The notes under the pieces: generated by a model
Seen by the model: the letters and a program-made list of their open reading frames with translations, nothing else
Database searches by the model: none
What the model was told of the DNA's origin: nothing
Shown: positions 2,694-41,476 of the stretch, piece by piece
Position numbering within the stretch: position 1 is the stretch's first letter
Layout of the letters: the number at the start of each line of letters is the position of its first letter
Assembly (NCBI GenBank): GCA_902799045.1
Contig: CADBZH010000004.1
Location: forward strand, 1 to 54,103
Reading direction: 5' to 3'
From: an uncultured Eubacteriales bacterium
GTDB lineage: Bacteria > Bacillota > Clostridia > Christensenellales > Aristaeellaceae
DNA: 54,103 nucleotides
Made by a program: the position numbers and the translations under genes

Positions 2694-2711
2694 ATTTCGC
2701 TCTCCGCACGG

Positions 2712-3488: not shown

Positions 3489-3555
3489 TCGTCCAATGCC
3501 CAAAGGTTTCCACGCTCCCGCGCCATGCGGCGTATAATCACAAATATCCATTTAT

Positions 3556-3584
3556 ATTGTACAATGGATGCATGGGCGGGTCAA
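3556..3584 (-). promoter_or_regulatory. Sigma-A-like promoter of the Wzm-Wzt-GlfT2 operon
   Basis: Read on the minus strand: TTGACC (3579-3584), a 17-base spacer, then TACAAT (3556-3561). The expected transcription start is near 3549, about 60 bases before the ATG at 3488. Confidence 0.7.
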
Positions 3585-3730
3585 CCGGTTTTGCCGAAAA
3601 TTCCTGTGACATTTGGCGAAGCGGGAGCCTTTGCGGGAAGCGCGGGGAGGGGGCCGCGCCCGCGCGTGTAAACAAAGGGTCATGATATTGGAAATAAACG
3701 TTACAATCTGTTGTGAGTTTGCAAAGGCGA

Positions 3731-3759
3731 TTGACTCGGCGTGAGAATTCAAGTATAAT
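3731..3759 (+). promoter_or_regulatory. Sigma-A-like promoter of the main plus-strand cluster
   Basis: TTGACT (3731-3736), a 17-base spacer, then a perfect TATAAT (3754-3759). The expected transcription start is near 3766, leaving a leader of about 190 bases before the first gene. The 403-base gap at 3552-3954 holds this promoter, the divergent one at 3556-3584 and the leader; I see no gene in it. Confidence 0.75.
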
Positions 3760-3765
3760 GATGAT

Positions 3766-3954
3766 GTATATTCAGGTGAAATGGGGACTCAGGCACAGGA
3801 CGGGATGGAGGCGGCACCGGCTGGATTGGCGGGCCGTGAAAACCCCGGACACAGCGAAGATGCGCGCGGGACAAAGGTCCGGCGCGGGGCGAAGCCGTGC
3901 CGTTTGACAGAGACGATTTGGGAGAAACGAGCCCAATACGACGGAGGATGGAAT
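3766..3954 (+). promoter_or_regulatory. Long GC-rich 5' leader of the main cluster
   Basis: About 189 untranslated bases between the predicted start of transcription and the first ATG. It contains short complementary stretches such as GGACAAAGGTCC (near 3873-3884) and a GGC...GAAGCC stem just after, which could fold. I do not recognise a known riboswitch class. A role in antitermination or attenuation of a very long operon is inference only. Confidence 0.3.
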
Positions 3955-5325: not shown

Positions 5326-5346
5326 GGCGTCGGTTATCGCTCCGTT

Positions 5347-8300
5347 ATGGCGACTGAAAACACGCTCCGCGGCCTGGCCGACCGCAGGCGCATCGCCGCG
5401 CGCATCGCGGATTTCCTGGAATACCTGCTGATGCTGGCGGTGCTGCTGGAGTGCAACTCCATGTACTGCTACGCGGTGGAAACCGTGGGCCGCGTGGACA
5501 TGTACATGCTGTTCTACCGGCTGTCGATGGGGCTTGCGGCCGCGGCGCTGGCGATTCGGCTCTGGCTGAATCCGAAGCCCCTTCGCCGGTGTCTGGAAGA
5601 GCTTGCGCCCTTCGGGCTGCTGATCGTCTGGGCCGTCGCGTTTTATCTGTTGAACGTCCGGCTGCAGGAGGCGTGGAAGCGGCAGAGCTATGTCATGAAT
5701 TTCCTGCTGTTCCTGCCGCTGATGACGGCCCTCTTCAAGGCGAAGCAGCGGGACGGGCAGGGGCTGGATCTGCTTCTGAAATATTCGGACATCGTGTGCG
5801 TGCTGGCGGCCCTGAGCCTGGCGGTCTATCTGGCCAGCGTGCTGCGGCCGGAGAGCGTGCAGGCGGATCTGATCTATTCCCGCTGGAACAACCGGCGCGC
5901 CACCACCGCCCAGCTGAACCTGCTGGACGTGTGCCAGGCGGTGCTGCGGGCCAAGTGGCAGATGCTCGGTGTCTCGCTGCTGAGAAACCGCAGCCTGTTC
6001 ACCGAGCCGCTGATGTTCGCGCTGCCCCTCTTGATCTCGCTGAACGCGGAGCTGTTCTTGCGGGACGAGCACGACCGCTGGCGGGTGCTGCGCTGGGCGC
6101 TTCTGTCGGTCGCGCTGCTGGTCGTGAACGCCACCATCGGGTTGATGCTGGCGGCGGTGGCCTGGGGCCTGAAGGCGGTTTCGGCGTGCCTGACCCACCG
6201 CAGGCGCTGGCTGGTCATCCCGATGCTGGTCCTGGCCGTCGGCGTGGTCGCGTTCATGTTCCTCGAAAAGGGACGGTCGTCCTACCTGAACACGGCCATC
6301 TCGGGAAGCTCGATGAGCGACCACCTGGACGACTACAGCGCCAGCTTCAAGGCTTTCGCCACGAGCCCCTGGCTGGGTGTCGGCTTCCTCAACGAGGAGG
6401 GCATTTTCGCCCACATGCAGGCCTTCCGCCTGAACAATCCCGGCCTGAGCAACACCGCGGGCACGGTTCTCGCCGAGGGCGGGGCGATGCTCGGGCTGAT
6501 GTGCGCGCTGCCGTTTTTCGTCTGCTGCCTGTATCTGTTCCGCCGCAGGAACTGGCGCGTCGCCTGCTGGGCCGTGGGCATGCTGGGCGCGGCCGTCGGC
6601 ATCATCTTCAAGTATCACCTGCTGCTGATGCTGCTGATCGCCTTTGGATACTCGCTTCTGGAGGTCCGCCGGGAAGGCGGCAGGCTCCGGCTGGCGCTGG
6701 CGGATGTCAGGGACCGGCAGGCGGAGCCAAAGGCCGACAAAGCCGGGAAATGGCTGCCCGTGCTGGCGGCCGCCCTGGGCATCGGACTGGTGAACGGGGC
6801 GCTGGCGCTCTTCGGCGCGCCGGTGTGGAGCGCGCTGCGTGCGTTCCTCCGCGGCCATCAGTTCAGCGTGGGCCAGTCGCCGCTGCGCGCCTTCTGCCTG
6901 GCAATTGCGCTGCTGCTGAACGGCGTCGGCGTGCGCCGGGCGCTGCGCGGCGAGGCTTCCTGGGCGCGGGTCGCCGGGCTGCTGGCTTGGGACGCCGCTT
7001 ATCTGCTGCTCTATCCGGCGCTGTTTTCCTGGGTCAACACCCTGCTGCCGATGCTCGGCCTGTGGGGAGAGCTTCGGGAGTGCGTGCTGCTGCTGGCGGC
7101 CTGGATGCTGCCGACGGCGCTGCTGCTCCTGTGGCCGGCGCGCCGACTGAACCGCAGAAACGCGGCGGCTCTGGGCGCGACGGCGGCGGTGATCGCCGCG
7201 ATTGTCTGCGCCGGGAGCCTGTACATCGACCGCCATGCCGGCGCGGAGGACGCGCTGGCGGCGGAGCTGAACGAGCTGACACAGTGCGCGACGGGCAGCG
7301 TGTACGTCAACGATATGCCGCTGAAGTATCGCCGCCTGGCGAAGGGCCTCGCCCTGCCCGCGACGCGGGACAGCGGCTACGAGGTCGAGGAGAACGCCAC
7401 GGTCGTCTTTGAGGCGGGCGCGGAGCGGCGCGAGCTGATGGAATACGGCTTCCAGGTGGCGCGGCTTCAGGACGGACACCTGGTCTACACCACCGATCCG
7501 GCGGTCATCGCCCGCCTGGCGGAGCGGGGAACGGCGGTTTACCGCTACTATCCCTTTGGCCGGGAGGTGGATCTGGCCTCCCTGGCGGAGCTGAACGCCC
7601 TCCAGGTGACGGACGAAGGCGCCGTGATCGTGGACGGGCCGATCGAATCGCTGGCCTCCGGGCCGTATGACACGCTCTATCCCGGTGAATACAGCGCCGT
7701 CTACGCGCTGCACATCGATCCCGAGCGCCGCTCGGAGCTGCCCGCGGACGCGACGGTGTGCCGCGCCGCGCTGACCTGGGATTACGGCCAGTCGTCGCTG
7801 GCGCAGCATCCGGTGGCGCTGGATGCCTTTGACGCGAACGGGGACGCCGAGGTTTCGGTGCCGTTTGCGCTGGTCGGCATCGCCGACGGCGTGGAATACC
7901 AGCTGTTCGGCGAGGCGGACGTCCGCGTCGAGGTGCGGTCGATCGACGTTCGGCAGACGCCGAGCTACATCACTGTCACCGACTACAACAGCCATCGGGA
8001 CGTGATCCGCGAGAGCTACTTCAACCTGGACGGCACGCCCTGCGACATGGGCGGATACGCCGTGCTGGAGCAGGAGTTCGACATGGCGGACCGGCTGATC
8101 GCCCAGCGCTTCTGCGACGCGGACAGAAACCCGGTGCTGGTGCGCAGCGGCTACGCGGAGCTTCGGTACACCCACAACGCCAAGGGCTCGCCGGACAGCG
8201 AGTCCTATATGGGAACGGACGGCAAGCCGATCATGATCGCCTATGGCTATGCCTCCCAGCACTGGGAGTACGACGCCTACGGCAACATCGCGGTGACCCG

Positions 8301-8439
8301 CTATTACGATGTAAACGGCGATCCGGTGAACAACGCCGCGGGATACGCGGTGCTGGTGCGAGAATACGACGACCAGCGCCAGATCGTCCGACAGGAATAC
8401 CTGGACACCGACGGAAACGCGGTGGAGCCCGCCTCGTGA
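5347..8439 (+). CDS. Large O-antigen-polymerase/ligase-like membrane protein with 32-residue repeats
   Basis: 1030 aa. The first ~450 residues are a multi-spanning polymerase/ligase-like region containing the Wzy-family pattern ATSPWLGVGF, and NPGLSNTAGTVLAEGG soon after. A further set of membrane segments follows to about 620. Next comes an extracytoplasmic domain (about 625-875) that resembles the C-terminus of the second polymerase at 47351-50140. Residues 880-1030 are about 4.7 copies of a 32-residue repeat. It starts 21 bases after the Wzz-like gene with no strong ribosome site, suggesting translational coupling. It probably polymerises or ligates glycan. The operon also has a simpler Wzy at 25109, so the roles may differ. 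Confidence 0.75.
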   Translation: MATENTLRGLADRRRIAARIADFLEYLLMLAVLLECNSMYCYAVETVGRVDMYMLFYRLSMGLAAAALAIRLWLNPKPLRRCLEELAPFGLLIVWAVAFYLLNVRLQEAWKRQSYVMNFLLFLPLMTALFKAKQRDGQGLDLLLKYSDIVCVLAALSLAVYLASVLRPESVQADLIYSRWNNRRATTAQLNLLDVCQAVLRAKWQMLGVSLLRNRSLFTEPLMFALPLLISLNAELFLRDEHDRWRVLRWALLSVALLVVNATIGLMLAAVAWGLKAVSACLTHRRRWLVIPMLVLAVGVVAFMFLEKGRSSYLNTAISGSSMSDHLDDYSASFKAFATSPWLGVGFLNEEGIFAHMQAFRLNNPGLSNTAGTVLAEGGAMLGLMCALPFFVCCLYLFRRRNWRVACWAVGMLGAAVGIIFKYHLLLMLLIAFGYSLLEVRREGGRLRLALADVRDRQAEPKADKAGKWLPVLAAALGIGLVNGALALFGAPVWSALRAFLRGHQFSVGQSPLRAFCLAIALLLNGVGVRRALRGEASWARVAGLLAWDAAYLLLYPALFSWVNTLLPMLGLWGELRECVLLLAAWMLPTALLLLWPARRLNRRNAAALGATAAVIAAIVCAGSLYIDRHAGAEDALAAELNELTQCATGSVYVNDMPLKYRRLAKGLALPATRDSGYEVEENATVVFEAGAERRELMEYGFQVARLQDGHLVYTTDPAVIARLAERGTAVYRYYPFGREVDLASLAELNALQVTDEGAVIVDGPIESLASGPYDTLYPGEYSAVYALHIDPERRSELPADATVCRAALTWDYGQSSLAQHPVALDAFDANGDAEVSVPFALVGIADGVEYQLFGEADVRVEVRSIDVRQTPSYITVTDYNSHRDVIRESYFNLDGTPCDMGGYAVLEQEFDMADRLIAQRFCDADRNPVLVRSGYAELRYTHNAKGSPDSESYMGTDGKPIMIAYGYASQHWEYDAYGNIAVTRYYDVNGDPVNNAAGYAVLVREYDDQRQIVRQEYLDTDGNAVEPAS
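7984..8436 (+). repeat. Tandem 32-residue Y-D/D-G repeats at a protein C-terminus
   Basis: In the frame of the 1030-aa protein there are four successive units of 31-32 residues and one partial unit. The pattern is YDxxGxIxxxxYxDxDGxPV, then xxxxGYAxxxxE. Examples include YYDVNGDPV with GYAVLVRE, and FCDADRNPV with GYAELRYT. The repeats resemble RHS/YD-type beta repeats and may bind glycan or cell wall; this is inference. Confidence 0.8.
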
Positions 8440-8494
8440 CCGGGCGCCCCGCGCAATAAGACAGGCAGTTTGACGACGGGAGGTACGGCTTTCA

Positions 8495-10498
8495 ATGAGC
8501 AGTAATCCGCTGAACGGCAAGGCGGACGAGATACAGAAGAACAGGCACAGGATCGCCCAGTGGCGCATCGTCGCCTTCTTCATGGCGCTGTATGATTTCG
8601 TGGCGGTTTGCGGCGCGTATTTCATGGGGCTGTTCCTGCGCTTTGACGGGGTGTTCAGCAACATACCGCTTCAGTATCTGGAGCCGTTTGAGAAGTTCAT
8701 CTTTCCGTGCGCCGCGGCTTCCATCGTCGTGTTCTTCCTCTGCCGCATGTACAACGGCATGTGGCGCTACGCCAGCTTTGCCGACTTCATCCGGACCTTC
8801 GTCGGCTCGATGATCTCCTCCGTGCTGCACACGGTGCTGATCACGGTCATCTTCTCGAGAATGCCGCTTTCCTACTACATCCTCGGCGCGGGCTTCCAGT
8901 TCGTGCTGCTGGTGGCGGTCCGGTTCGCGGCGCGCTTCCTGAACATCCTCCGCCGCCGCCACGAGCCGCAGCAGGGGGAATCGAAAAACGTGATGCTGAT
9001 CGGGGCGGGCAACGCGGCGCAGATGATCCTGCGGGACATGACCCGCGCCAACGAAATCAGCGACCGCGTGGTCTGTATCATCGACGACGACCCGAACAAG
9101 TGGCACCGCACGCTGGACGGCATCCCGATCGTCGGCGGGCGGGACGAGATCCTGAACGCCGCGAAGCAGTACAAGGTGGACAAGATCTTCCTGGCCATCC
9201 CCAGCGCCACGATGCAGCAGAAGCGCGACCTGCTGAGCATCTGCTCGGAGACTGGCTGCGAGCTGCAGCAGCTGCCGGGCATGTTCCAGTTCATGCTGGG
9301 CCAGGTCTCCGTCAGCGACCTGAAGAAGGTCTCGGTGGAGGACCTGCTGGGCCGCGAGCCGATCAAGGCCGACATGGAGGAGGTCTATTCCTTCATCAAC
9401 GGCAAGACCGTTCTGGTGACCGGCGGCGGCGGCAGCATCGGCTCGGAGCTGTGCCGCCAGATCGCGGCGCACACCCCGAAGCAGCTGATCATATTCGATA
9501 TCTATGAGAACAACGCCTACTCCATCCAGCTGGAGCTGCGCGAGAAATACCCGGAGCTGAACCTGGTGACGCTGATCGGCTCCGTGCGCGACAGCCGCAG
9601 GATGTTCGAGGTGTTCGAGGTCTATCGCCCGCAGATCGTCTATCACGCGGCGGCGCACAAGCACGTGCCGCTGATGGAGGACAGCCCCTGCGAGTCCATC
9701 AAGAACAACGCCATCGGCACCTACAAGACCGCCTACGCCGCGATGATGCACGGCTGCGAGCGCTTTGTGCTGATCTCCACCGACAAGGCCGTGCACCCGA
9801 CCAACATCATGGGCGCCTCGAAGCGCCTGTGCGAGATGATCGTGCAGTCCTTTGATCGAAAGATCAAATCCGGCCGGGCGGGGGAGATCTCGCAGCTGTT
9901 CACCCACGAGGGCCTGGAGAACGCGGACAAGGTCGGCGACGGCCGGGTGTTTGAGGGCATCCGCACGGAATTCGTGGCCGTGCGCTTCGGCAACGTGCTG
10001 GGTTCGAACGGCTCCGTCATCCCGATCTTCAAAAAGCAGATCGAGAAGGGCGGCCCCGTCACCGTCACCCACCCGGACATCATCCGCTATTTCATGACGA
10101 TCCCCGAAGCCGTGAGCCTGGTGATGCTGGCGGGCACCTATGCCCGGGGCGGCGAGATCTTCGTGCTGGACATGGGCAGCCCCGTCAAGATCGACACGCT
10201 GGCGCGCAACCTGATCCGCCTGTCGGGCCTCAAGCCGGACGTGGACATCCAGATCGAATACACCGGCCTGCGCCCCGGCGAAAAGCTCTACGAGGAAAAG
10301 TTGATGGCGGAGGAGGGCCTCCAGAAGACGGACAACGACCTCATTCACATCGGCAATCCCATCGCCTTCGACGAGGACGCCTTCCTCACGGGGCTGGAAA
10401 AGCTGATGGAGGCCGCCTACGCCAACCGCGAGGGCGACATCCGCGGCCTGGTGAAGGAAATCGTTCCCACCTATCATCCGGAGGATGGGGGCCACTGA
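8495..10498 (+). CDS. Membrane-bound UDP-GlcNAc 4,6-dehydratase (FlaA1/PglF/CapD family)
   Basis: 667 aa, the normal length for the large membrane-bound class. Four N-terminal membrane segments (about 20-140) are followed by a CoA-binding-like Rossmann domain (about 160-280, LIGAGNAAQM). A catalytic SDR domain starts at VTGGGGSIGSELCRQ and carries STDKAVHPTNIMGASKR, where Met takes the place of the usual Tyr ahead of Lys, as in PglF-type enzymes. The family converts UDP-GlcNAc to the 4-keto-6-deoxy sugar. The aminotransferase at 12506 and the PglC-like transferase at 14321 place it at the head of a 4-amino-4,6-dideoxy (bacillosamine-like) sugar pathway. GGGAGG precedes the ATG. Confidence 0.92.
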   Translation: MSSNPLNGKADEIQKNRHRIAQWRIVAFFMALYDFVAVCGAYFMGLFLRFDGVFSNIPLQYLEPFEKFIFPCAAASIVVFFLCRMYNGMWRYASFADFIRTFVGSMISSVLHTVLITVIFSRMPLSYYILGAGFQFVLLVAVRFAARFLNILRRRHEPQQGESKNVMLIGAGNAAQMILRDMTRANEISDRVVCIIDDDPNKWHRTLDGIPIVGGRDEILNAAKQYKVDKIFLAIPSATMQQKRDLLSICSETGCELQQLPGMFQFMLGQVSVSDLKKVSVEDLLGREPIKADMEEVYSFINGKTVLVTGGGGSIGSELCRQIAAHTPKQLIIFDIYENNAYSIQLELREKYPELNLVTLIGSVRDSRRMFEVFEVYRPQIVYHAAAHKHVPLMEDSPCESIKNNAIGTYKTAYAAMMHGCERFVLISTDKAVHPTNIMGASKRLCEMIVQSFDRKIKSGRAGEISQLFTHEGLENADKVGDGRVFEGIRTEFVAVRFGNVLGSNGSVIPIFKKQIEKGGPVTVTHPDIIRYFMTIPEAVSLVMLAGTYARGGEIFVLDMGSPVKIDTLARNLIRLSGLKPDVDIQIEYTGLRPGEKLYEEKLMAEEGLQKTDNDLIHIGNPIAFDEDAFLTGLEKLMEAAYANREGDIRGLVKEIVPTYHPEDGGH

Positions 10499-10513: not shown

Positions 10514-11500
10514 TTGAAAAAGCTGTGGAACAACCTGGCGCGAGACCTGTGGATCGTGCTGATGGACATCATCGCCGTCAACTTCGCCTATTTCCTGGCG
10601 GTGCTGGTCCGCTTCTATATCAAAAACTTTGAGTTCCGGCCTGTGATGGGCACCTATATGAACGCCTGGGCGACCTTCACGCCCTTCTACACGGTGCTGT
10701 GCGTCGCGGTGTTCGCGCTGTTCAAGCTCTATGGCGGCATGTGGCGCTACGCGGGCATCAACGACATGAACCGCATCATCGGCGCGAATGTCGTCACGCT
10801 GATTTTGCAAATCGTCGGCACGTCGCTGTTCGTCATCCGCATGCCCATCGCGTACTATGTGGTCGGCGCGGCGGTGCAGTTCGTGCTGGTGGCGCTGATC
10901 CGCTTCGGCTATCGCATCGTGCTGGTGGAAAAGAAGAACATCGCCAGCCGCCGGACGCCCGCCGTACCCTCGCTGGTCATCGGCGCCGGGGAGACCGGGC
11001 GCCGGGCGATCAAGCACCTGGAGGACACGACCGCCTTCCGCCCGGTCGCGGTGGTCGACCCCAAAAGCGCCGGCAAGGCGCTGGACGGCGTGCCGGTGGT
11101 GGCCGAGATGGACGCGGCCCTGGGCGGCGTGCAGGCCGTGTTCATCGCGGACCCGTCCCTGACCCGCGAGCAGCGCGAGGCCATTCGCGCCCTGACCGAG
11201 GAAAAGGGCATCGACCTTCAGGATTACACCGGCTATCTCAGCAACCTGGGCGGGCGCGTGCCGCTGTCCTCGCTGCTGGAGCTGGCGGACGGCCCCGTGA
11301 CCGTCGCCATCGAGGGCCGCGAGCAGACCTTTGAAAGCGGCGACGCGGCGCTGAAGGCCCTGAACGGGCGCTATGACATCGCCCGCGTGCGGAACCTGAA
11401 GCTGGATTTGAAGCAGCCCAACGCGCAGGCGTATGTGGGCTACGAGGCCTGGGCGAAGCAGCACCAGGAGGAGACCGGCGAGGAAGTCAGCTTTTTCTGA
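10514..11500 (+). CDS. Dehydratase paralogue lacking the catalytic domain, copy 1
   Basis: 328 aa from a TTG start with AGGAGG at 10501-10506, 7 bases ahead. It matches the N-terminal half of the preceding 667-aa dehydratase: four membrane segments with MWRYAGINDMNRI, then the Rossmann domain (VIGAGETGRRAIKHLE). It stops where the SDR domain should begin and adds a private tail of about 70 residues (DGPVTVAIEGREQTFESGDA and onward). It cannot be a dehydratase on its own. It could be a scaffold, a sensor or a regulatory partner of the full enzyme. The intact frame, the good ribosome site and a second copy downstream argue against a pseudogene. Confidence 0.85.
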   Translation: MKKLWNNLARDLWIVLMDIIAVNFAYFLAVLVRFYIKNFEFRPVMGTYMNAWATFTPFYTVLCVAVFALFKLYGGMWRYAGINDMNRIIGANVVTLILQIVGTSLFVIRMPIAYYVVGAAVQFVLVALIRFGYRIVLVEKKNIASRRTPAVPSLVIGAGETGRRAIKHLEDTTAFRPVAVVDPKSAGKALDGVPVVAEMDAALGGVQAVFIADPSLTREQREAIRALTEEKGIDLQDYTGYLSNLGGRVPLSSLLELADGPVTVAIEGREQTFESGDAALKALNGRYDIARVRNLKLDLKQPNAQAYVGYEAWAKQHQEETGEEVSFF

Positions 11501-11527: not shown

Positions 11528-12463
11528 ATGAAGAACATACTGTCAAAGCTGAAGGGCAGCCTCTGGCTCATCGTGATGGACATCATCGCGGTGAACGCGG
11601 CGTTTGTGCTCGCGCTGCTGCTTCGCTACTACGTCCATTCGGAGCTGGTCACGGCCGCGTGGCGGTTCGTGAACAACTACGTGCGCTTTGCCCCGTTCTA
11701 CACGCTGTTGTGCCTGGCGGCCTTCTACGTCTGCGGGCTCTATGAGGGCCTGTGGCGCTACGCCGGCTTCAACGACTTCAAGCGCGTGCTGCTGGCGAAC
11801 GTGCTCACGGCGGTGCTGAATGTGGTGGGCATGAAGCTCTTCTTCGAGGGCATGCCCACGACCTACTACGTCGTCGGCGGGCTGCTGCAGCTGCTGTTCG
11901 TCGCCGCGATCCGCTTTTCCTATCGCTTCATGGAGATCAAGCGGCGCCAGGACGCGCGCGACAGGACCTGGACGATCCCGACGATGGTGGTTGGCACCGG
12001 CGAGTGCGCCCGGGCGTTTGCGCAGCATCTGGAGGCGGCCAGCCCGTTCCAGGTGGTCGCGATGGTGGGCGAGGGCAGCGGCAAGACGATGGACGGCATT
12101 CCCATCGTGAACCGCGAGGCCATCCCGGTGCAGATCCGGTACCACGACATCCAGGCGATCTTCCTGGCCGACGAGGCCCTGGAGGCGCGCGAGAAAGAAG
12201 CGATCCGCCGGGAGGCCGGGGACGTCGAAGTGCGGGACTACATCGAGTACCTCAGCGACATGGCGACCGGCATGCCGCTGACCGCCCTGCTGAAGGTGAC
12301 GGACGGGCCGGTCTCGGTGACGCTGAACGGCGAGGAGCGACAGTTCTCCAGCGCGGCGGAGTGCCTGCTGGCGCTCAAGGGCCGCCATGAGGTGAAGCGC
12401 GTCCAGGGCGCGCGGATCGAGCTGGAGGAAGCCGTCCGCCGGGATGACGAACAAAATCAATAA
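11528..12463 (+). CDS. Dehydratase paralogue lacking the catalytic domain, copy 2
   Basis: 311 aa, a paralogue of the gene before it. It has the same membrane region (LWRYAGFNDFKRVLLANVLT), the same Rossmann motif (VVGTGECARAFAQHLE) and the same type of tail (DGPVSVTLNGEERQFSSAAE). The SDR catalytic domain is again missing. The tails of the two copies align with each other but do not belong to the dehydratase family I know, so they define a private module. Copy 1 and copy 2 may form a heteromer or associate with the complete dehydratase at 8495. The function is unknown. Confidence 0.85.
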   Translation: MKNILSKLKGSLWLIVMDIIAVNAAFVLALLLRYYVHSELVTAAWRFVNNYVRFAPFYTLLCLAAFYVCGLYEGLWRYAGFNDFKRVLLANVLTAVLNVVGMKLFFEGMPTTYYVVGGLLQLLFVAAIRFSYRFMEIKRRQDARDRTWTIPTMVVGTGECARAFAQHLEAASPFQVVAMVGEGSGKTMDGIPIVNREAIPVQIRYHDIQAIFLADEALEAREKEAIRREAGDVEVRDYIEYLSDMATGMPLTALLKVTDGPVSVTLNGEERQFSSAAECLLALKGRHEVKRVQGARIELEEAVRRDDEQNQ

Positions 12464-12505: not shown

Positions 12506-13816
12506 ATGCACGATTTTATATCTGACCCCAGGTTCAAGGGCATCGCGCCGTTTGACCGCAAGGTTTGGCTCTCCTCTCCGACCATGCACGGCGACGAGCA
12601 GCGCTGGGTGGACGAGGCGATCCAGACCAACTGGGTCTCCACCGTCGGCGCGAACATCGACGCGGTGGAGAAGCAGATGGCGGAGTATGTGGGCGTGAAG
12701 TATGCCGTGGGCCTCTCCGCGGGCACCGCGGCGCTGCACCTGGCCACGAAGCTGGCGGGCGAGCGCCTCTACGGCCAGGCCCGCCCGAATCACGGCACGC
12801 TGGAGGGCAGGCGGGTGTTCTGCTCCGACGTCACCTTCGACGCCAGCATCAACCCCGTGGCCTATGAGGACGGCGAGGCCGTTTTCATCGACACCGAGCG
12901 CGACACCTGGAACATGGACCCGGTGGCGCTGGAGAGGGCCTTCGAGCTCTATCCGGACGTGCGGCTGATCGTCGTCGCCCACCTGTACGGCACCCCCGGC
13001 AAGATGGAGGCCATCAAGCGCGTCGCGGACGCCCACGGCGCCCTGATCGTCGAGGACGCCGCCGAGAGCCTGGGCGCGAAGTACCGCCTGAACGGCCAGT
13101 GGGTGGAGACCGGCGCGCTGGGCGATTACAACTGCATCTCCTTCAACGGCAACAAGATCATCACCGGCTCCGCCGGCGGCCTGTTCCTGACCGATTCCAA
13201 GGAGGACGCGGACAAGGTGCGCAAGTGGTCCACCCAGAGCCGCGAGGCCGCGCCCTGGTACCAGCACGAGGAGATCGGCTACAACTACCGCATGTCCAAC
13301 ATCATTGCGGGCATCATTCGCGGCCAGATCCCCTATCTGGACGAGCACATCGACCAGAAGCGGGCCATCTACGAGCGCTATCGCGAGGGCTTCAGGGGCC
13401 TGCCGGTGCGGATGAACCCCATCGACTTTGAAAACAGCGTGCCCAACTACTGGCTCTCCTGCCTGATCATCGACGAGGACGCCATGGCGCCCCAGGTGCG
13501 CGGCGAGCAGGACTACCTCTACCAGAGCGTGCCCGGCAAGAGCTCCCCGCAGGAGATCCTCGAGGCCATCGCCGCCTTCCGCGCCGAGGGCCGCCCCATC
13601 TGGAAGCCCATGCACATGCAGCCCATCTACCGCACCCACGCCTTCATCACCACCGAGGGCAACGGGCGCGGCCGCAGCAACGCCTATATCGCCGGCTCCG
13701 GCGTCGATGTCGGCGCGGATATCTTCCGCCGCGGCCTCTGCCTGCCCAGCGATAACAAGATGACGGCCGAGCAGCAGGATATGGTGATCGAGATCGTGCG
13801 CAGATGCTTCAGGTAG
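12506..13816 (+). CDS. DegT/DnrJ/EryC1-family sugar aminotransferase (PglE/LegC-like)
   Basis: 436 aa, somewhat longer than the usual ~380. A PLP-dependent fold is seen, with VGLSAGTAALHLA, the cofactor Asp in VEDAAESLGAKY, and the Schiff-base Lys217 in SFNGNKIITGSAGG. These enzymes aminate 4-keto-6-deoxy UDP-sugars using glutamate. With the dehydratase upstream the expected product is a UDP-4-amino-4,6-dideoxy-HexNAc, the natural substrate for a PglD-type N-acyltransferase. The start ATG has AGGGAG 9 bases upstream. It is not an AEP transaminase, which belongs to a different PLP class. Confidence 0.93.
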   Translation: MHDFISDPRFKGIAPFDRKVWLSSPTMHGDEQRWVDEAIQTNWVSTVGANIDAVEKQMAEYVGVKYAVGLSAGTAALHLATKLAGERLYGQARPNHGTLEGRRVFCSDVTFDASINPVAYEDGEAVFIDTERDTWNMDPVALERAFELYPDVRLIVVAHLYGTPGKMEAIKRVADAHGALIVEDAAESLGAKYRLNGQWVETGALGDYNCISFNGNKIITGSAGGLFLTDSKEDADKVRKWSTQSREAAPWYQHEEIGYNYRMSNIIAGIIRGQIPYLDEHIDQKRAIYERYREGFRGLPVRMNPIDFENSVPNYWLSCLIIDEDAMAPQVRGEQDYLYQSVPGKSSPQEILEAIAAFRAEGRPIWKPMHMQPIYRTHAFITTEGNGRGRSNAYIAGSGVDVGADIFRRGLCLPSDNKMTAEQQDMVIEIVRRCFR

Positions 13817-13826: not shown

Positions 13827-14324
13827 ATGAACAAAAGGCTTTGGCATTCGCTTCGGATCGCGCTGATGCCGCAATCCGATCAAAGGGTGGCTTATCTGCG
13901 CAGGCATCACGTCTTTGGGCATATCGGCAAAGACAGCATCTGGCGGGACAGGCTGGTGCCGCTGTACGCCGAGAGGATTTATCTGGGGGACAACGTGCGC
14001 TGCGGCTCCAAGGTGCTGTTCATCACGCACGATGTCATTCATTCGATGCTGAACCATCGCGAGGGAAATGATTTCCCATTCGAGGAGAAGGTCGGTGATA
14101 TCCGCGTCGGCGACAACGTCTTCATCGGCACGAACACGACGATCCTCTATGACGTCACCATCGGCTCGAATGTCATCGTCGGCGCCGGGAGCCTGGTCAA
14201 CAGGGACGTTCCCTCGAATTCCGTGGTCGCGGGCGTGCCCGCAAGATACATATGCTCGTTTGACGCGTTTGTGGAGAAGCGGAAACAGGCGCAGATCGAC
14301 GGGACCAAAGGACAGGTAAAATGA
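13827..14324 (+). CDS. Left-handed beta-helix O/N-acyltransferase (CatB/WcaF-like)
   Basis: 165 aa. Hexapeptide repeats run through IYLGDNVRCGSKVLFITHD, IRVGDNVFIGTNTTILYDV and IGSNVIVGAGSLVNRDVP, ending in VVAGVPARYICSF, the classic C-terminus of this superfamily. It has no N-terminal sugar-nucleotide-binding domain, unlike PglD/NeuD. It probably O-acetylates a sugar with acetyl-CoA; the substrate is unknown. Its stop overlaps the start of the next gene by four bases (ATGA). A second acyltransferase of the NeuD/PglD type is present at 17819. Confidence 0.88.
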   Translation: MNKRLWHSLRIALMPQSDQRVAYLRRHHVFGHIGKDSIWRDRLVPLYAERIYLGDNVRCGSKVLFITHDVIHSMLNHREGNDFPFEEKVGDIRVGDNVFIGTNTTILYDVTIGSNVIVGAGSLVNRDVPSNSVVAGVPARYICSFDAFVEKRKQAQIDGTKGQVK

Positions 14325-14947
14325 AGCATCAACCATACGGGCCCTATGAAAAGTTCATCAAGCGGCCGCTGGATTTCCTCTTAGCCCTCTTCGCGCTCAT
14401 CGTGCTGTCGCCGGTTCTTCTGGTCACGGCGGTCCTGGTTCGCGTGAAGCTCGGCTCCCCGGTGCTGTTCACGCAGCGGCGCCCCGGGAAGGACGGCAGG
14501 GTTTTCAAACTGTACAAGTTCCGCACGATGCTTCCGCCCGTGAAGGGCAGGGAGGACCCCCGGTATGACGCCGAGCGCCTGACGCCCTTCGGCAGGAAGC
14601 TGAGATCCACCAGCCTGGACGAATTGCCGGAGCTGATCAATATCCTCAAGGGGGATATGTCCATCGTCGGGCCGAGGCCGCTGCTGGTCCAGTATCTGGA
14701 GCGCTACAATCCTCGTCAGCGCAGGCGGCACGAGGTGAGACCGGGATTCACCGGACTGGCGCAGGTTCACGGCCGAAACGCGATCAGTTGGGAAGAAAAG
14801 TTCGAGTGGGACGTTCAGTACGTCGACCACATCACTTTCCTGAAGGATTGCGGGATCATTCTCGCCACCGTGAAAACGGTGCTCCGGCGGGACGGGATCA
14901 ACTCGGAAGGCGCCGCGACGATGGAAGAATTTATGGGAGGGTCATGA
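14321..14947 (+). CDS. PglC-like monotopic phosphoglycosyl transferase
   Basis: 208 aa, the size of the minimal PglC/WcaJ-C class. A single reentrant hydrophobic segment (about 12-40) follows FIKRPLDFLLALFAL. Then come FTQRRPGKDGRVFKLYKFRT, the catalytic Asp-Glu in LDELPELINILKGDMSIVGP, and RPLL. The family transfers a sugar-1-phosphate from UDP-sugar to undecaprenyl phosphate, starting the repeat unit. PglC in Campylobacter uses UDP-diNAcBac. The dehydratase and aminotransferase upstream fit a related 4-acylamino sugar here. It overlaps the previous gene by four bases. Confidence 0.92.
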   Translation: MKHQPYGPYEKFIKRPLDFLLALFALIVLSPVLLVTAVLVRVKLGSPVLFTQRRPGKDGRVFKLYKFRTMLPPVKGREDPRYDAERLTPFGRKLRSTSLDELPELINILKGDMSIVGPRPLLVQYLERYNPRQRRRHEVRPGFTGLAQVHGRNAISWEEKFEWDVQYVDHITFLKDCGIILATVKTVLRRDGINSEGAATMEEFMGGS

Positions 14948-16876
14948 GTGGCAATGAAGGAGAGTTACCGTGCTGCGGTTAAAATCCGGGCTTTCGAAGA
15001 ACTGATCTTGGATCTGTTCGGGCAAAACAAATTGTCCGGCACCACGCATACCTATATCGGCCAGGAAGCGACCGCCGTCGCGATCATGAAGTACGTCAAG
15101 GACGGCGATTTCGTATTCAGCAATCATCGCTGCCACGGGCACTACCTGGCATACGGCGGCCCGGAAAGGGCGCTGCTCGCCGAGATCATGTCGAGGGAAT
15201 CGGGCCTCTGCCACGGAAAGGGCGGCAGCCAGCATATTCACTATAAGAATTTCTTCACCAACGGCATCCAGGGGGGAATCGTGCCGAATGCCACCGGCGT
15301 CGCGCTGGCGGGCAAGCTGAGACACCAAAAACACAATACGGTGGTCTTCCTGGGCGACGGGACGCTGGGACAGGGTGTTGTCTATGAATCGATGAATATC
15401 GCCGCGGTATACAGCGTTCCGATCGTCTATGTCGTCGAGGACAACGCCTATGCCATGAGCACCCGGAGGACCGATGTCATCGCGGGGGATATCCGCGCGC
15501 GGATCCAGGGCTTTGGCGTGGAGACCTTTGAGATCGAGAGCACGGACGTGGATGCGCTTGAGGCGTTCTTCGCCCGGGTGTTTGACTATGTCGCCTCGGA
15601 GGGAAAGCCGGCCTGCGCAGTGGTGCACAACTATCGCCTGGGCGCGCACAGCAAGGGCGACGACACGAGGGACCCGGAGGAGGTCAACGAGCACCGGAAG
15701 AAGGACCCCATCCTGCTGATCCGGGAGAAAGCGGACCCGGAAGAGGTGGACGCGGCCTATCGCGAATTCCGCGCCGGCTTTGAGAAGATGGAGCGGGAGC
15801 TTGAGCAGGAGCCGGTCCTTCGGGTGAAGATCCCGACTCTGAAGGCGGCGGGCGTAAAAGAATCGCTCCTGTCCTCCGGGGAGAGGCGCTATGTGGAGGG
15901 GATCCGAAGCGCCTTCATGGAAAAGCTGAAGGAGGATGAAACCGCCGTCTTTCTGGGAGAGGACATCCGCGATCCGTATGGCGGGCCCTTCAAGGCCACC
16001 AAGGGACTTTCGGAGGCGTTTGACCGCCGGATCCTGAACATGCCGATCAGCGAGGCCTGCATGACGGGCCTGTGCGTGGGCCTGGCGATCAACGGGATCC
16101 TGCCGGTGATGGAGCTGATGTTTGGCGATTTCATCACGCTCGGATTCGATCAGCTGCTGAATCACGCCTCCAAGTACGGATGGGTGTATGACGTTCAGGT
16201 GCCGATGATCCTGCGCGTGCCGAGCGGCGCGAAGCGGGGCTACGGGCCGACGCACAGCCAGTCGCTTGAGAAGTTCCTGATCGGCGTTCCGGGCGTGAAG
16301 GTGCTGTCCGTGTCGCAGGCCGTTGATCCGGAAAAGCTGTACAGGACAGTCTTTTCGACGATCGGCGAGCCCACGGTCATCGTGGAAAACAAGAAGCTGT
16401 ACGGGCAAAAGTCCTGCGGGATCCAGGACGGACGGTATGGCGTCTTCTCCGTCAGGGAGTTCCGGGATCAGGGCTATTCGACGATCCTGTTTACCGTGGA
16501 CGAAAACACGAAGCCGGATTGCGTGCTGATCACGTATGGCGGCATGCTGGAGGACGCGCTGTCCGCCGCGGAAGCGCTGATGCTGGAGGATGAGATCCAG
16601 GTCAACGTCATCCTGCTGACCCAGCTGAATCCCCTGCCGATGGAGGACCTGAAGAAAGCCATCCGCTTTGATGTGCCGGTCCTCGTCGCGGAGGAGGGCA
16701 CGCGGACGGCCGGCATCGGCGCGGAGATCATCGCGCAATGCGCCGAGCGGGGAATCGGCAGAAAGTTCGGCCGCATCGCAACGCCGGATATGCCGATCCC
16801 AAACGGCATCGCGCTGGAATCCCAGGTCGTGCCGGATTGCGAGCGCATCAAGGCGGAAATCCGATCGGCTCTATGA
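14948..16876 (+). CDS. 2-oxoacid dehydrogenase E1, alpha and beta subunits fused
   Basis: 642 aa from GTG 14948 (GGAGG at 14936-14940, 7 bases before); an ATG at 14954 is less well spaced. Residues 1 to about 300 are E1-alpha: HRCHGHYLAYGG, GKGGSQHIH, and the TPP motif GDG (136-138) to EDN (164-166). Residues from about 310 are E1-beta: FLGEDIRDPYGGPFKATKGL, NMPISEACMTGLCVGLAING, with the transketolase C-terminal part ending in AEIIAQCAERG. The enzyme decarboxylates a 2-oxoacid and acylates lipoyl-lysine. Fused alpha-beta E1 proteins are known, but one inside a capsule operon is striking. The lipoyl protein, lipoate ligase and E3 follow directly. The 2-oxoacid cannot be read from the sequence. 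Confidence 0.92.
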   Translation: MAMKESYRAAVKIRAFEELILDLFGQNKLSGTTHTYIGQEATAVAIMKYVKDGDFVFSNHRCHGHYLAYGGPERALLAEIMSRESGLCHGKGGSQHIHYKNFFTNGIQGGIVPNATGVALAGKLRHQKHNTVVFLGDGTLGQGVVYESMNIAAVYSVPIVYVVEDNAYAMSTRRTDVIAGDIRARIQGFGVETFEIESTDVDALEAFFARVFDYVASEGKPACAVVHNYRLGAHSKGDDTRDPEEVNEHRKKDPILLIREKADPEEVDAAYREFRAGFEKMERELEQEPVLRVKIPTLKAAGVKESLLSSGERRYVEGIRSAFMEKLKEDETAVFLGEDIRDPYGGPFKATKGLSEAFDRRILNMPISEACMTGLCVGLAINGILPVMELMFGDFITLGFDQLLNHASKYGWVYDVQVPMILRVPSGAKRGYGPTHSQSLEKFLIGVPGVKVLSVSQAVDPEKLYRTVFSTIGEPTVIVENKKLYGQKSCGIQDGRYGVFSVREFRDQGYSTILFTVDENTKPDCVLITYGGMLEDALSAAEALMLEDEIQVNVILLTQLNPLPMEDLKKAIRFDVPVLVAEEGTRTAGIGAEIIAQCAERGIGRKFGRIATPDMPIPNGIALESQVVPDCERIKAEIRSAL

Positions 16877-17859
16877 GGGGCCTGTTCTGCCGGTCGGAAA
16901 GCCTGAATCCGTACGGGAACCTGGCTTTGGAGGAATACCTGCTGTCTTCGGGCCGGCCGACTCTGTATCTGTGGCAGAATGACAACACGGTGGTCATCGG
17001 AAGAAACCAGAACGCCTATACGGAATGCGACATGGACTATGTCAGGGCGAGCGGCATCCGCGTCGTCAGGCGGCTGACGGGGGGCGGAGCGGTCTATCAC
17101 GACCGGGGCAACCTGAACTATTCACTGATCCTGCCGCGCGGCCTACATGATATCGCGCGGTCGACGGCGATGATCGTCAGCGCGCTGAACCGTATCGGCA
17201 TCCCCGCGGTCACGAGCGGGCGAAACGATATCCTGCTGGACGACAAAAAGATCTCCGGCAACGCCTATTACTCCAACCGGGAGGTCGGCCTGCACCACGG
17301 AACGCTTCTGTATCGCGTCGATCCGGAGAAGATGGAGCGCGCCCTGTCCGTGCCGGCGTGGAAAAAGACGAAGCACGGAATACGCTCGGTCAGGGCGCGG
17401 GTCACTGATATCGCGTCCCGCTTTCCGGAGATCGACATGGCGCGCATTCAGGACGCGCTGCGGGAGGCTTTCTGCGGGGAATATGGCGTGGATCGGCTGG
17501 AAGCCGTGCTTCCGGACGAACAGCGGCTGCGCATGCTTGAGGATAAGTACGCTTCAGACGACTGGAATTTTGGCCGTATCAACGAATACGACGTCTTTCA
17601 GGAGGCCACTTTTCCCTGGGGAACGGTGAAGGTATCGGTCAGCCTTGCCGGCGGACGGATTCAAAGCGCCGAGATTTCCTCGGATTCGCTGGAGGCGGAC
17701 CTGATCGACCGGGTGAGGGAAATGATCAGGCGGAACGATAGGACCGCGGCGGAAGGCCATGGCGTCGTTTCGGACATACTGTCGGTCTATCAAAATCTGA
17801 TGATGAAGGAGTCTCTGAATGGAAAAGAGCATGAAAATGCCACGCCTGGGTGTGAATGA
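16873..17859 (+). CDS. lplA: Lipoate-protein ligase A
   Basis: 328 aa from ATG 16873, overlapping the E1 stop (ATGA). The hallmark segments are complete: VVIGRNQNAYTE, RRLTGGGAVYHDRGNLNYS, and DDKKISGNAYYSN followed by HHGTLLY. The C-terminal accessory domain is present to the usual length. It activates free lipoate with ATP and attaches it to the lysine of lipoyl domains. Its place between E1 and the lipoyl protein indicates a dedicated role in modifying Lys43 of the next gene product. Its last 41 bases overlap that gene. Confidence 0.95.
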   Translation: MRGLFCRSESLNPYGNLALEEYLLSSGRPTLYLWQNDNTVVIGRNQNAYTECDMDYVRASGIRVVRRLTGGGAVYHDRGNLNYSLILPRGLHDIARSTAMIVSALNRIGIPAVTSGRNDILLDDKKISGNAYYSNREVGLHHGTLLYRVDPEKMERALSVPAWKKTKHGIRSVRARVTDIASRFPEIDMARIQDALREAFCGEYGVDRLEAVLPDEQRLRMLEDKYASDDWNFGRINEYDVFQEATFPWGTVKVSVSLAGGRIQSAEISSDSLEADLIDRVREMIRRNDRTAAEGHGVVSDILSVYQNLMMKESLNGKEHENATPGCE

Positions 17860-18862
17860 TGAATATGTGACGCTCGTCGAATGGAAGGTGACGGACGGAG
17901 CCTATGTGAAGCAGGGCCAGACGGTCGCGGAAATCGAGACGACCAAGGAATCCAGCGAGCTGGAGGCCGAGGCGGAGGGATACATTCACCTCCTGGCAGC
18001 GGCGGATACGGAAATCCGCGTGGCCGAAACGGTGGCGGTGATCACGGATGCCCCGGAATACCGGGTTATGAAGGAGAAGAAGGACTTCTCCGGCATCAAG
18101 ATCACGGAAAAGGCCAGGGCGCTGATCGAAAAGTACAACGTGGATCTGGCCGCGTTTGGGGGATGCACCATCGTTCGCGAGAAGGACGTTCTCGCGTTGG
18201 TGAACCGCAGCGAGACGGTCGAGAGGAGCAGGGCCAACGACGTGGTGATCGTTTGTGGCGGCGGGCTTGCGAAGATGACCATCGACCTGATCAGGCTGAA
18301 CAAGGCCTACAATATCCACGGCTTTGTGGACGACAACCCCAGGGTCGGGCCGGAATTGATGGGCGTTCCGTATCTGGGCGGCCTGGACAAGCTGAAGGAG
18401 ATCCGCTCGGAGGGGTACAAGACGGCGGTCAACGCCAACGGAAGCATCGCGATCGACAACCAGGCGGACGCGTTCCATCGAAGGGAAAGGATCTATGAGC
18501 AGATCTCGCAGAGCGACTATTTCCTTCCGACGCTGATCCATCCTTCAGCCCAGATCGCGCCTTCCGCGCAGCTCGGAGAGGGCGTGCTTGTGTTTGAAAA
18601 CGCGGTGATCGGCAGCGACGCCGTCGTCGGCGACGACTGCATCATCAACACGGGCGCCATCGTGTCGCACGACTGCGTCATCGGGAATCACACGCGCGTC
18701 TCGCCCGGCGCCATCCTGGCGGGCGATGTTCATGTCGGTGAGAATTCGTTGATCGGCATGGGGGTTACGATCTATCTGGGCGTTCGGATCGGCAAGAACG
18801 TCATCATCTCCAACGGCCAGAATATCATGGGGGATATTCCGGACAATACGGTGGTCAAATAA
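17819..18862 (+). CDS. Lipoyl domain fused to a NeuD/PglD-type sugar acyltransferase
   Basis: 347 aa. AAGGAG at 17806-17811 sets ATG 17819. Residues about 5-78 are a lipoyl domain with Lys43 in EIETTKESSE, the site LplA would modify. Residues about 96-132 (KITEKARALIEKYNVDLAAF, then REKDVLALV) resemble the peripheral-subunit-binding domain that docks E1 or E3. From about 140 the chain is NeuD/PglD-like: a Rossmann-type nucleotide-sugar domain (VVIVCGGGLAKMTIDLI), then left-handed beta-helix repeats. His284-Asp285 (IVSHDCVIG) aligns with the catalytic His-Glu of PglD. The E2 catalytic domain (HxxxDG) is absent here and from the whole window. Arg293 stands where PglD has a second His near the acetyl-CoA site. 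I infer acyl transfer from lipoyl-lysine to an amino sugar. Confidence 0.9.
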   Translation: MEKSMKMPRLGVNDEYVTLVEWKVTDGAYVKQGQTVAEIETTKESSELEAEAEGYIHLLAAADTEIRVAETVAVITDAPEYRVMKEKKDFSGIKITEKARALIEKYNVDLAAFGGCTIVREKDVLALVNRSETVERSRANDVVIVCGGGLAKMTIDLIRLNKAYNIHGFVDDNPRVGPELMGVPYLGGLDKLKEIRSEGYKTAVNANGSIAIDNQADAFHRRERIYEQISQSDYFLPTLIHPSAQIAPSAQLGEGVLVFENAVIGSDAVVGDDCIINTGAIVSHDCVIGNHTRVSPGAILAGDVHVGENSLIGMGVTIYLGVRIGKNVIISNGQNIMGDIPDNTVVK

Positions 18863-18879
18863 GCGCAAAGGAAAGAATC

Positions 18880-20244
18880 ATGATGGGATCCTCGTACGAT
18901 GTGACGGTTATTGGCGGCGGCCCGGGCGGATACAAGGCGGCCGAACTGCTGGGTGAAAAGGGGCTGCGCGTGGCGCTCGTGGAAGCGTCCGAGATCGGCG
19001 GCACCTGTCTCAATATGGGATGCATTCCCTTCAAGACGTACCTTCACGCCTCGAGGATCAACCGCGACGCCGCGCTGCTGGCCGGGCGGGGAATCCTGGA
19101 CGCGAATCCGGGCCGGCTTCATCAGGCGCAGATCCTGAAGGAGAAGGACGGCATCGTCAGGGGCCTCCGGCAGAGCGTGGAGGCCGGGCTGCGCCAAAGA
19201 GGCGTGACGCTTTACCGAGGGACTGCGGAGGTGCTCGGGGATTCGGATTCTGAATTCACAGTCCGCGCGGAGGGCGAGCTGCTGAAAAGCACGCGGCTGA
19301 TCATCGCGACCGGCTCGGAGGAGAAGCGGATCACGGTGCCCGACGGGCTGCCCTATCGGGTGATCACCAGCAAGGAGATGCTGGAGCTGGACGCGCTGCC
19401 GGAAGAAGTGGATATCATCGGCGCGGGCACGATCGGGCTGGAGGCCGCCAGCTATTACCTCGACGCCGGGTGCCGCGTCACGCTCGTCGAAGCAGCGGAG
19501 AGGATTGGCGGACACATCGACGGCGAGATGGCGAAGGCGCTCGCGAGAATCCTGGAGAAGCGGGGTGCGACGATCCTGACGGAGACCCGGCTCGAGCGCT
19601 TTGACGCGGACGGCGTGGCGTATCGGAATCGGGAAGGGGAGATCAGGCGCAACCCCGACACGGTGCTCATCGCGGTGGGAAGGCGGCCAAAGGTCGACAG
19701 AAACAGCGTCGAGAGGCTTCAGCTGAGGCTGGACGGCGATGGGATCTGGATCGACGAGATGTGCAGGACTTCCCATGAAAACGTATACGCCTGCGGAGAC
19801 GTGACCGGCAAGCTGATGCTCGCCCATACGGCGTACCGGCAGGCGAAGGTCATCGCGGACGCCATCTGCGGCACGCCCTGCGCGATGGATTACAGCCTGG
19901 TTCCCCGCGTGATTTACACCAACCCCGAGGTCCTGACGATAGGCGCGACCGAGGAGGACTGTGTCAGGGACGGAATCCCCTACAGGGCAGACGCGCTTCC
20001 GATGACCTACAGCGGCAAGTATTTCGCGGAAAATGGAAAAGACGGCGCGAAGGCAAAGATCATCGCGGACGGGGAAGATCGGCTGATCGGCCTTCACGTG
20101 ATCGGAAACGGTTTTTCGGAGTTTTCGATGGCCGCGGAGCTCATGATCGCCAATCGGATGAAAATCGAGGAGATTGGCAGGCTGGTGTTTCCGCATCCCA
20201 CTTACGCGGAGATCTTCTCGGAGCTGACCGCGATGCGCCGATAA
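18880..20244 (+). CDS. lpdA: Dihydrolipoamide dehydrogenase (E3)
   Basis: 454 aa, normal length. The FAD-binding GGGPGG (12-17) is followed by the redox-active GGTCLNMGC with Cys43 and Cys48. An NAD-binding IIGAGTIGLEAASYYL comes next, then the second FAD motif in VYACGDVTG, and the C-terminal interface His-Glu pair in FPHPTYAEIFSE. It reoxidises dihydrolipoyl groups with NAD+. It closes the dehydrogenase module directly downstream of the lipoyl-acyltransferase fusion, giving a full turnover cycle of E1, lipoyl arm and E3. AAAGGAAAG precedes tandem ATGs at 18880 and 18883. Confidence 0.95.
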   Translation: MMGSSYDVTVIGGGPGGYKAAELLGEKGLRVALVEASEIGGTCLNMGCIPFKTYLHASRINRDAALLAGRGILDANPGRLHQAQILKEKDGIVRGLRQSVEAGLRQRGVTLYRGTAEVLGDSDSEFTVRAEGELLKSTRLIIATGSEEKRITVPDGLPYRVITSKEMLELDALPEEVDIIGAGTIGLEAASYYLDAGCRVTLVEAAERIGGHIDGEMAKALARILEKRGATILTETRLERFDADGVAYRNREGEIRRNPDTVLIAVGRRPKVDRNSVERLQLRLDGDGIWIDEMCRTSHENVYACGDVTGKLMLAHTAYRQAKVIADAICGTPCAMDYSLVPRVIYTNPEVLTIGATEEDCVRDGIPYRADALPMTYSGKYFAENGKDGAKAKIIADGEDRLIGLHVIGNGFSEFSMAAELMIANRMKIEEIGRLVFPHPTYAEIFSELTAMRR

Positions 20245-37718: not shown

Positions 37719-37753
37719 GGCGGCCAGGCGGTTCGCGGTGAGGAGAATATCCG

Positions 37754-38500: not shown

Positions 38501-38517
38501 TGAAAGGCGGTAACCAT

Positions 38518-39522: not shown

Positions 39523-39528
39523 GATTCC

Positions 39529-41465: not shown

Positions 41466-41476
41466 GGAGTATCGCT

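Follow-up and report, generated by a model that had tools for sequence, protein, structure and literature searches.

Chemistry in which a two-carbon unit is delivered to an acyl carrier protein (ACP) was reportedly first described by Peng et al. in 2012. QncN, QncL and QncM have been shown to direct how a C2 glycolicacyl unit is made and attached, and for SclQ1-4 a ketose phosphate has been proposed as the glycolicacyl source (PMC6335953). DinS and DinU, homologues of NapB and NapD, are taken to form a hydroxyethyl unit from xylulose 5-phosphate that passes to the ACP DinT (PMC7570522), and Rif15 is a two-subunit transketolase using ketoses, with no word starting with 'lipo' in the text examined (PMC6002545). 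The locus described here lies on a contig of 54,103 bases (CADBZH010000004.1, analysed in its entirety and called the window), one of 54 in the draft assembly GCA_902799045.1 of an uncultured Eubacteriales bacterium. It encodes a fused E1 enzyme of the thiamine diphosphate (ThDP) type, a lipoate-protein ligase (LplA), a fusion of a lipoyl domain to a PglD-type sugar N-acyltransferase, and a dihydrolipoyl dehydrogenase-like E3. Taken whole, we read these four genes, with moderate confidence, as a dedicated lipoyl-dependent sugar N-acylation module. Since transfer from E1 over a lipoyl group to an acceptor other than CoA has already been reported for ACP, the sugar acceptor is new, together with the PglD fusion and the LplA and E3 encoded alongside. 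The earlier note on this DNA knew of no described CoA-independent acylation from lipoyl to sugar, and no report of it was found in the open-access literature, which omits most subscription papers. The 'lipoylation' of flagellin glycans, considered as a precedent, concerned fatty acid chains (PMC4875605).

The lipoyl-PglD fusion and its lost CoA-closing turn

The open reading frame list together with Pfam and NCBIfam profiles gives the order fused E1, LplA, lipoyl-PglD fusion and E3, as the earlier note had it. E1 overlaps LplA and LplA overlaps the fusion, the E3 start lies 17 bases past the fusion's stop, and all four frames are open; the LplA start at 16873 sits inside an open frame of 16738-17859. 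The G+C content is about 0.60-0.62 in the module and ranges from 0.55 to 0.69 across the window. The module and the parts of the fusion are:

14948..16876, plus strand: E1, fused alpha and beta ThDP enzyme of 642 amino acids (PF00676, PF02779, PF02780), RenH clade; proposed glycoloyl donor to lipoyl
16873..17859, plus strand: LplA, lipoate-protein ligase (TIGR00545, 301 bits, cut-off 280); proposed to lipoylate Lys43
17819..18862, plus strand: fusion of lipoyl domain, helical linker and PglD-type N-acyltransferase, in the usual place of E2 (Pfam, NCBIfam, AlphaFold)
17828..18043, plus strand: lipoyl domain, residues 4-75 (PF00364, Biotin_lipoyl, E 7.9e-12; pLDDT below 50)
17945..17947, plus strand: Lys43 codon (ETTKES), presumed lipoylation site (sequence)
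18092..18208, plus strand: residues 92-130, short helices resembling a peripheral-subunit-binding domain (block pLDDT 82-86)
18242..18430, plus strand: PglD_N nucleotide-sugar binding domain, residues 142-204, with D171 and D172 (PF17836, E 6.1e-8)
18668..18670, plus strand: His284 codon, catalytic base by alignment (His in 59 of 59 relatives)
18809..18862, plus strand: altered last coil (SNGQNI) and early stop removing the G-x-P turn (alignment)
18880..20244, plus strand: E3, dihydrolipoyl dehydrogenase-like (TIGR01350, 383.6 bits, cut-off 408.8); proposed to reoxidise the lipoyl arm

We take ETTKES around Lys43 to be a lipoylation motif, and GGTCLNMGC in E3 is presumably its redox motif. In the C-terminal half of the fusion PglD_N is followed by hexapeptides, which Pfam and the AlphaFold model together give as PglD_N plus a left-handed beta-helix. 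The fusion reaches 178.5 bits against the NeuD family TIGR03570 (cut-off 160.8) and is without a match to the E2 core PF00198 at E 0.001, so that the description of a lipoyl protein ending in a NeuD/PglD domain, with no E2 core, still stands. The AlphaFold model has a mean pLDDT of 77.7; from residue 91 on most values exceed 80, dropping at 131-140 and 211-220. The best PDB match of the model is PerB (4eaa, TM 0.89 by target length). Linker helices are modelled at residues 97-106, 110-113 and 121-139; the Pfam E3_binding domain has no match in the fusion at E up to 10.

The PglD half was compared with 59 relatives, those among the 87 fetched with E of 1e-20 or below and near-full coverage. H284, N277, R222 and G302 are each kept in the fusion and in every relative, as is D171 in the fusion, a position held by Asp in 53 of the 59. 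Spacing and alignment equate His284 with His142 of Pcryo_0637, and G302 corresponds to Gly160 of that enzyme, the two being its likely base and its oxyanion hole, respectively; the turn proline of Pcryo_0637 adopts the cis form when CoA is bound and the trans form in its absence, and the coil from this proline folds back into the last strand (PMC8040287). The proline of the G-x-P turn is present in 56 of the 59 relatives (a simple text test detects the turn in 54, and two of its five failures carry the turn before a long tail); its position falls past the stop of the fusion. The last coil of the fusion is changed as well, with Ser for Gly at 331, Asn for Ala at 332 and Asn for Val at 335. The adjacent acyltransferase at 13827 retains a GVPAR turn, an internal contrast to the fusion. 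A frameshift behind the lost tail is disfavoured, given that only 17 bases separate the stop from E3 and that inspection by eye showed the remaining frames there to be free of G-x-P. By sequence, the PglD domain of the fusion is one whose catalytic residues are retained and whose CoA clamp is lost. Direct acyl transfer from lipoyl to sugar without CoA, as first suggested in the earlier note, appears probable and is well backed by the sequence: the turn has gone with the residues of catalysis kept, no intact E2 was found in the draft assembly, and a viral E1 is paired with a PglD protein that is also tail-less.

Relationships of the E1 and a viral counterpart

The NCBIfam model nearest to the E1 is that of pyruvate dehydrogenase (PDH) E1 alpha (TIGR03182), at 218 bits and below the cut-off of 393.85. 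Among plasmid records the best-covering and most similar matches are RenH of the renieramycin cluster (38% end to end, 454 bits) and E1 pairs of actinobacteria and Paenibacillus, 37-41% identical to the window E1, lying, where annotated, in nonribosomal peptide synthetase or polyketide synthase surroundings. The E1 of a relative from the same class (genome G353) is 39% identical. In a tree of 33 E1s and 597 columns (a version of 32 rows gave 100/100 for the window E1 with RenH and four others), support of 100/100 unites the window E1, the viral E1 of locus L141 (see below), RenH, three actinobacterial E1s, the Paenibacillus E1 and that of G353, with 25 other E1s outside; the window E1 does not group with the dehydrogenase E1s. 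Within the clade the window and L141 are not sisters, and the approximately unbiased (AU) test does not reject their sisterhood (p 0.172). With few exceptions, the clade carries the residues GGSQH, G[IV]QG (GIQG in the window), GDGT and GYGPTHS. Of 35 distinct E1 alpha instances in the fetched loci, 7 have the Q-type motif, all seven being clade members; a second, overlapping count over L221-L270 finds it in 2 of 42 (window and G353). With profiles built from five clade E1 alphas, no E1 but that of the window scores above 234 bits in 338 genomes of the phylum, and none but those of the window and G353 (363.7 bits) above 230 in 336 genomes of the class.

Beside clade E1s, Pfam identifies a lipoyl domain and an E2 core in RenI and in the Streptomyces, Paenibacillus and G353 loci, the lipoyl match of the Paenibacillus neighbour being at 20.5 bits, below cut-off; in locus L211 a lipoyl-like start with a DHR-type motif adjoins the E1 (by reading). 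The Streptomyces locus L208 has the order ACP, alpha, beta, lipoyl-acyltransferase, which is also that of the Qnc-type and SclQ1-4 sets, and judged by gene order the clade E1s would resemble the two-component transketolases QncN/QncL. In the G353 locus (L270), the RenH-type fused E1 (8272-10239) adjoins a protein of 2390 amino acids (1103-8275), both on the minus strand, the latter with lipoyl domain, E2 core and ketosynthase (polyketide synthase domains) in one chain. A Leisingera plasmid (L215, 3962-7369) carries a fused E1, then a dihydrolipoamide acetyltransferase-type protein, then an ACP, possibly another E1-lipoyl-ACP set, outside the RenH clade. In PDH E1, H128 of the beta subunit is needed in the reductive acylation of lipoate (PMC2663715). 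The window E1 keeps the equivalent histidine (THSQS), and on this ground a route through LplA, E1, PglD and E3 is proposed.

This grouping with RenH and natural-product-type E1s means that a 2-oxoacid, the substrate first assumed for the E1, is no longer the best guess. An acyl group derived from hydroxypyruvate, one of the candidates then named, would be the same glycoloyl that the kinship of the E1 predicts, but its 2-oxoacid source is not favoured. Another candidate, phosphonopyruvate, is an unlikely E1 substrate, since a phosphonopyruvate decarboxylase is encoded within the cluster itself (41477).

An IMG/VR scan with the PglD alignment yielded 64 loci; in one of these (L141, also L205; IMGVR_UViG_3300028897_000717, a viral record of 54.9 kb) PglD is immediately preceded by E1 alpha and E1 beta; a viral scan using the window E1 alone gave no relative. 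These E1 subunits are 43% (alpha) and 40% (beta) identical to the window E1, and the PglD ends in VVKNGENV, without G-x-P. Among 113 PglD-family proteins besides the fusion (59 genomic and 54 distinct viral), L141 alone has Asn at both 332 and 335 (N-G-x-N), no other ends by the fusion's stop, and among the 113 loci E1 is seen nearby at L141 only, within the 1.5 or 3 kb of flanking sequence (less at contig ends). The contig also carries genes for a cytidylyltransferase, a UDP-GlcNAc 2-epimerase, a DegT protein and a 4,6-dehydratase, a set that suggests a nonulosonic-acid pathway whose N-acyltransferase step would fall to the E1-PglD pair. A second lipoyl-PglD fusion did not appear: overlapping samples of 297 (among the matches listed), 391 and 398 genomes, with a limited number of candidates scored per genome, contain no other full-length match, and 72,556 plasmid and 50,697 phage records no place covering 80% of the query. 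Two genome-contig loci were ruled out as fusions, their open frames of 210 and 233 amino acids being too short.

Proposed route and competing explanations

In the route that we propose, LplA would attach scavenged lipoate to Lys43 of the fusion, and E1, as a ThDP enzyme of the two-component-transketolase type, would cleave a ketose phosphate (e.g. xylulose 5-phosphate) and load the two-carbon unit on the disulfide of the lipoyl group to form glycoloyl-S-dihydrolipoyl. The lipoyl arm would then swing into the channel that CoA occupies in an ordinary PglD, where His284 would help the 4-amino group of a UDP-4-amino-6-deoxy sugar to accept the glycoloyl as an amide; E3 would reoxidise the arm with NAD+, and the acylated sugar would go on to the phosphoglycosyl transferase. 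Such a route would need neither CoA, nor ATP activation of the acyl group, nor an E2 core. What the sequences themselves show is gene content, architecture, loss of the turn, the clade of the E1, no other lipoate users found in the assembly, and a separate viral pair of E1 and tail-less PglD; we infer each chemical step. A UDP-4-amino sugar is the likely acceptor, and glycoloyl derived from a ketose phosphate is somewhat favoured as the acyl group. The broader view, in which acyl-lipoyl joins acyl-CoA and acyl-ACP as a third kind of donor to beta-helix sugar N-acyltransferases, yielding an N-glycoloyl nucleotide sugar from ketose phosphate with neither CoA nor ATP activation, and the pair has spread to a viral nonulosonic-acid-like locus, we regard as evenly balanced; in the virus the pair possibly works with a lipoyl protein of the host or dispenses with lipoyl altogether.

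The rest of the genome was searched for further lipoate users in the draft assembly, which is 93.1% complete and 1.8% contaminated. Besides the module E1, PF00676 finds one weak second match (19.7 bits), which passes the cut-off only with its neighbours and lies in a frame of 661 amino acids that reads like a DXP synthase. The five PF00364 stretches are the fusion, a biotin carrier (EAMKM motif) and three on contig 1, which by reading resemble efflux-type proteins, either secreted or anchored in the membrane; one of the three has a TDK sequence but a signal-peptide-like start. The GCV_H and lipA profiles found neither GcvH nor LipA in the assembly; of 14 control genomes they match 13 and 12, respectively. 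No likely lipoate carrier other than the fusion is seen in the assembly, and with no LipA found LplA would depend on lipoate from outside. Among 220 genomes sampled from the family, 12, this one included, have an E1 at E of 1e-30 or below. Among the family E1 loci L129-L140 a DHRxxDG core is found in 5 of 12 (L130, L131, L133, L134 and L136), some others being cut by contig ends, and a PglD match in none of the 12.

These data bear on whether the module is an ordinary dehydrogenase whose E2 lies elsewhere in the genome, a possibility raised at the outset. The incomplete assembly leaves room for it, and one PF00198 protein exists (305 amino acids, contig 12); this protein, however, is without a lipoyl domain and carries DERIADG where E2s carry DHRxxDG, which rules it out as the separate E2. 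No intact E2 (PF00198 core plus DHRxxDG) was found in the draft assembly, and no E1 at E 1e-30 in the 13 same-genus genomes among those listed, which leaves this explanation very improbable. Equally improbable is that the fusion is a decayed or inactive remnant of gene shuffling: the tail is lost, as are H150 and H293, and the fusion is a single instance, but the frames are open, the genes overlap in order, the catalytic residues are intact and the virus carries a separate E1 with a tail-less PglD. That the PglD domain still uses acyl-CoA, with the lipoyl arm handing the acyl group to CoA or merely docking E1 and E3, we consider improbable. The closest solved relatives (PerB, PglD, PglB and Pcryo_0637) are CoA enzymes and a few relatives without G-x-P exist; yet the fusion has lost the CoA-closing turn and has a changed last coil, beside a neighbour (13827) that keeps GVPAR, and no E2 core is present for making acyl-CoA. 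Rather unlikely, finally, is the same lipoyl-to-sugar route served by a true 2-oxoacid dehydrogenase E1, giving an N-acetyl, N-glycoloyl or other acyl sugar. The proximity to TIGR03182, though below its cut-off, and the retained H128beta-equivalent histidine would fit such an E1, whereas the 100/100 separation from the 25 other E1s and the clade-specific GGSQH, G[IV]QG, GDGT and GYGPTHS argue against it; for plain acetyl, moreover, acetyl-CoA would presumably be the simpler donor.

The reading as a lipoyl-dependent sugar N-acylation module itself has several observations to contend with. G-x-P is also missing in 3 of the 59 genome relatives and in 5 of 42 viral PglD proteins reaching the end, and its loss taken alone is weaker evidence. 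The fusion is without H150 (kept in 57 of 59 relatives; Cys in Pcryo_0637) and H293 (52 of 59), and G146, found in all 59, is replaced by Cys, so that its sugar or activity could differ. Its lipoyl part (residues 1-87) is mostly below pLDDT 50 and poorly modelled, probably because the alignment has no rows there; the E3 scores under its family cut-off, and the fusion is known from one instance. The assignment of the E1 as a transketolase would run via gene order and the RenH-type relatives, and since the H128beta equivalent also serves 2-oxoacid E1s, pyruvate or hydroxypyruvate may be the substrate. PF00364 has no match at E 1 in the 54.9-kb viral record, so E1 and a tail-less PglD can pair without an encoded lipoyl arm; the viral system may use a host lipoyl protein or the E1 directly. 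As the window is one whole contig of a draft, the genome-wide absences depend on correct binning.

If the module works as proposed, lipoate, a cofactor of central metabolism, drives the decoration of surface sugars, and a sugar acyltransferase is fed by a swinging arm instead of CoA. This would provide a CoA-free route to N-glycoloyl amino sugars and explain why LplA is kept where no lipoate synthase or other classical lipoyl protein was found in the assembly. The marks by which to search for such modules would be a lipoyl-PglD fusion, N-G-x-N with a lost G-x-P, and a GGSQH-type E1.

Neighbouring genes and described systems

Pfam confirms the glycan-operon setting, with a dehydratase, an aminotransferase, a hexapeptide acyltransferase and a phosphoglycosyl transferase upstream of the module:

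8495..10498, plus strand: UDP-sugar 4,6-dehydratase (PglF/EpsC-like), proposed maker of the 4-keto sugar (PF02719, E 5.8e-114)
12506..13816, plus strand: DegT/LegC-like aminotransferase, proposed maker of the 4-amino sugar (PF01041, E 4e-66)
13827..14324, plus strand: separate hexapeptide acyltransferase, GVPAR turn kept (PF00132)
14321..14947, plus strand: PglC/EpsL-like phosphoglycosyl transferase (PF02397, E 9.4e-61)

We take the grouping to be that of EpsC/EpsN/EpsM/EpsL or PglF/PglE/PglD/PglC, with the fusion at the place of EpsM/PglD. The aminotransferase scores 272 bits against TIGR04181, under the cut-off of 420, and no ACP is found among the operon genes scanned with Pfam. Two consecutive proteins (10514-11500 and 11528-12463) look, by reading, like the 8495 dehydratase reduced to its N-terminal membrane half, the catalytic domain being absent, and are without a Pfam match at E 0.001. 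Further along, 36420-42598 encodes a PEP mutase fused to a cytidylyltransferase-like domain in addition to the phosphonopyruvate decarboxylase at 41477 (TIGR03297, 458.5 bits, cut-off 312.5); an IspD-like gene lies at 21972, and LicD genes at 20272, 21148 and 26224. The PEP mutase, the decarboxylase and the three LicD genes make it likely that a glycan is decorated with phosphonate.

Among described systems, LpxA and LpxD are dependent on acyl-ACP. Together with a PglD-type protein of genome G254 they resemble the fusion in being beta-helix acyltransferases that a carrier feeds or that are joined to one, but their carrier is of the phosphopantetheine type instead of lipoyl, and the G254 protein keeps a GNPAR turn. 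The latter (L037, 7935-8873, minus strand) has an apparent C-terminal ACP and lies beside an AMP-ligase-like gene. With the left-handed beta-helix enzymes PglD, NeuD, PerB and VioB the fusion shares the fold, the catalytic His, the Asn, the Gly and the uridine-binding Asp, and differs from them in its N-terminal lipoyl arm, the missing G-x-P turn and the altered last coil. LbpA, the lipoyl protein of sulfur oxidation, is likewise non-classical and has an LplA-like ligase encoded alongside, but its proposed cargo is sulfur and not an acyl group (PMC6067878). The PDH, branched-chain 2-oxoacid dehydrogenase (BCKDH) and acetoin dehydrogenase complexes have in common with the module the set of E1, lipoyl domain and E3 and the order lipoyl, linker, catalytic domain, and its E1 has ThDP-binding and transketolase-like beta domains as in 2-oxoacid complexes; the module differs in having no E2 core, an E1 outside the clade of the 25 other E1s and a sugar amide as predicted product. 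The Qnc, Nap and SclQ1-4 systems, and by homology RenH-RenI, are alike in that the window E1 falls in one clade with RenH, and in a lipoyl domain acting as acyl carrier with a final acceptor other than CoA. In Qnc and Nap an E2-type core hands glycoloyl to ACP (PMC6335953, PMC7570522), whereas the window has a PglD sugar N-acyltransferase core in its place, with LplA and E3 beside it and a glycan operon around it.

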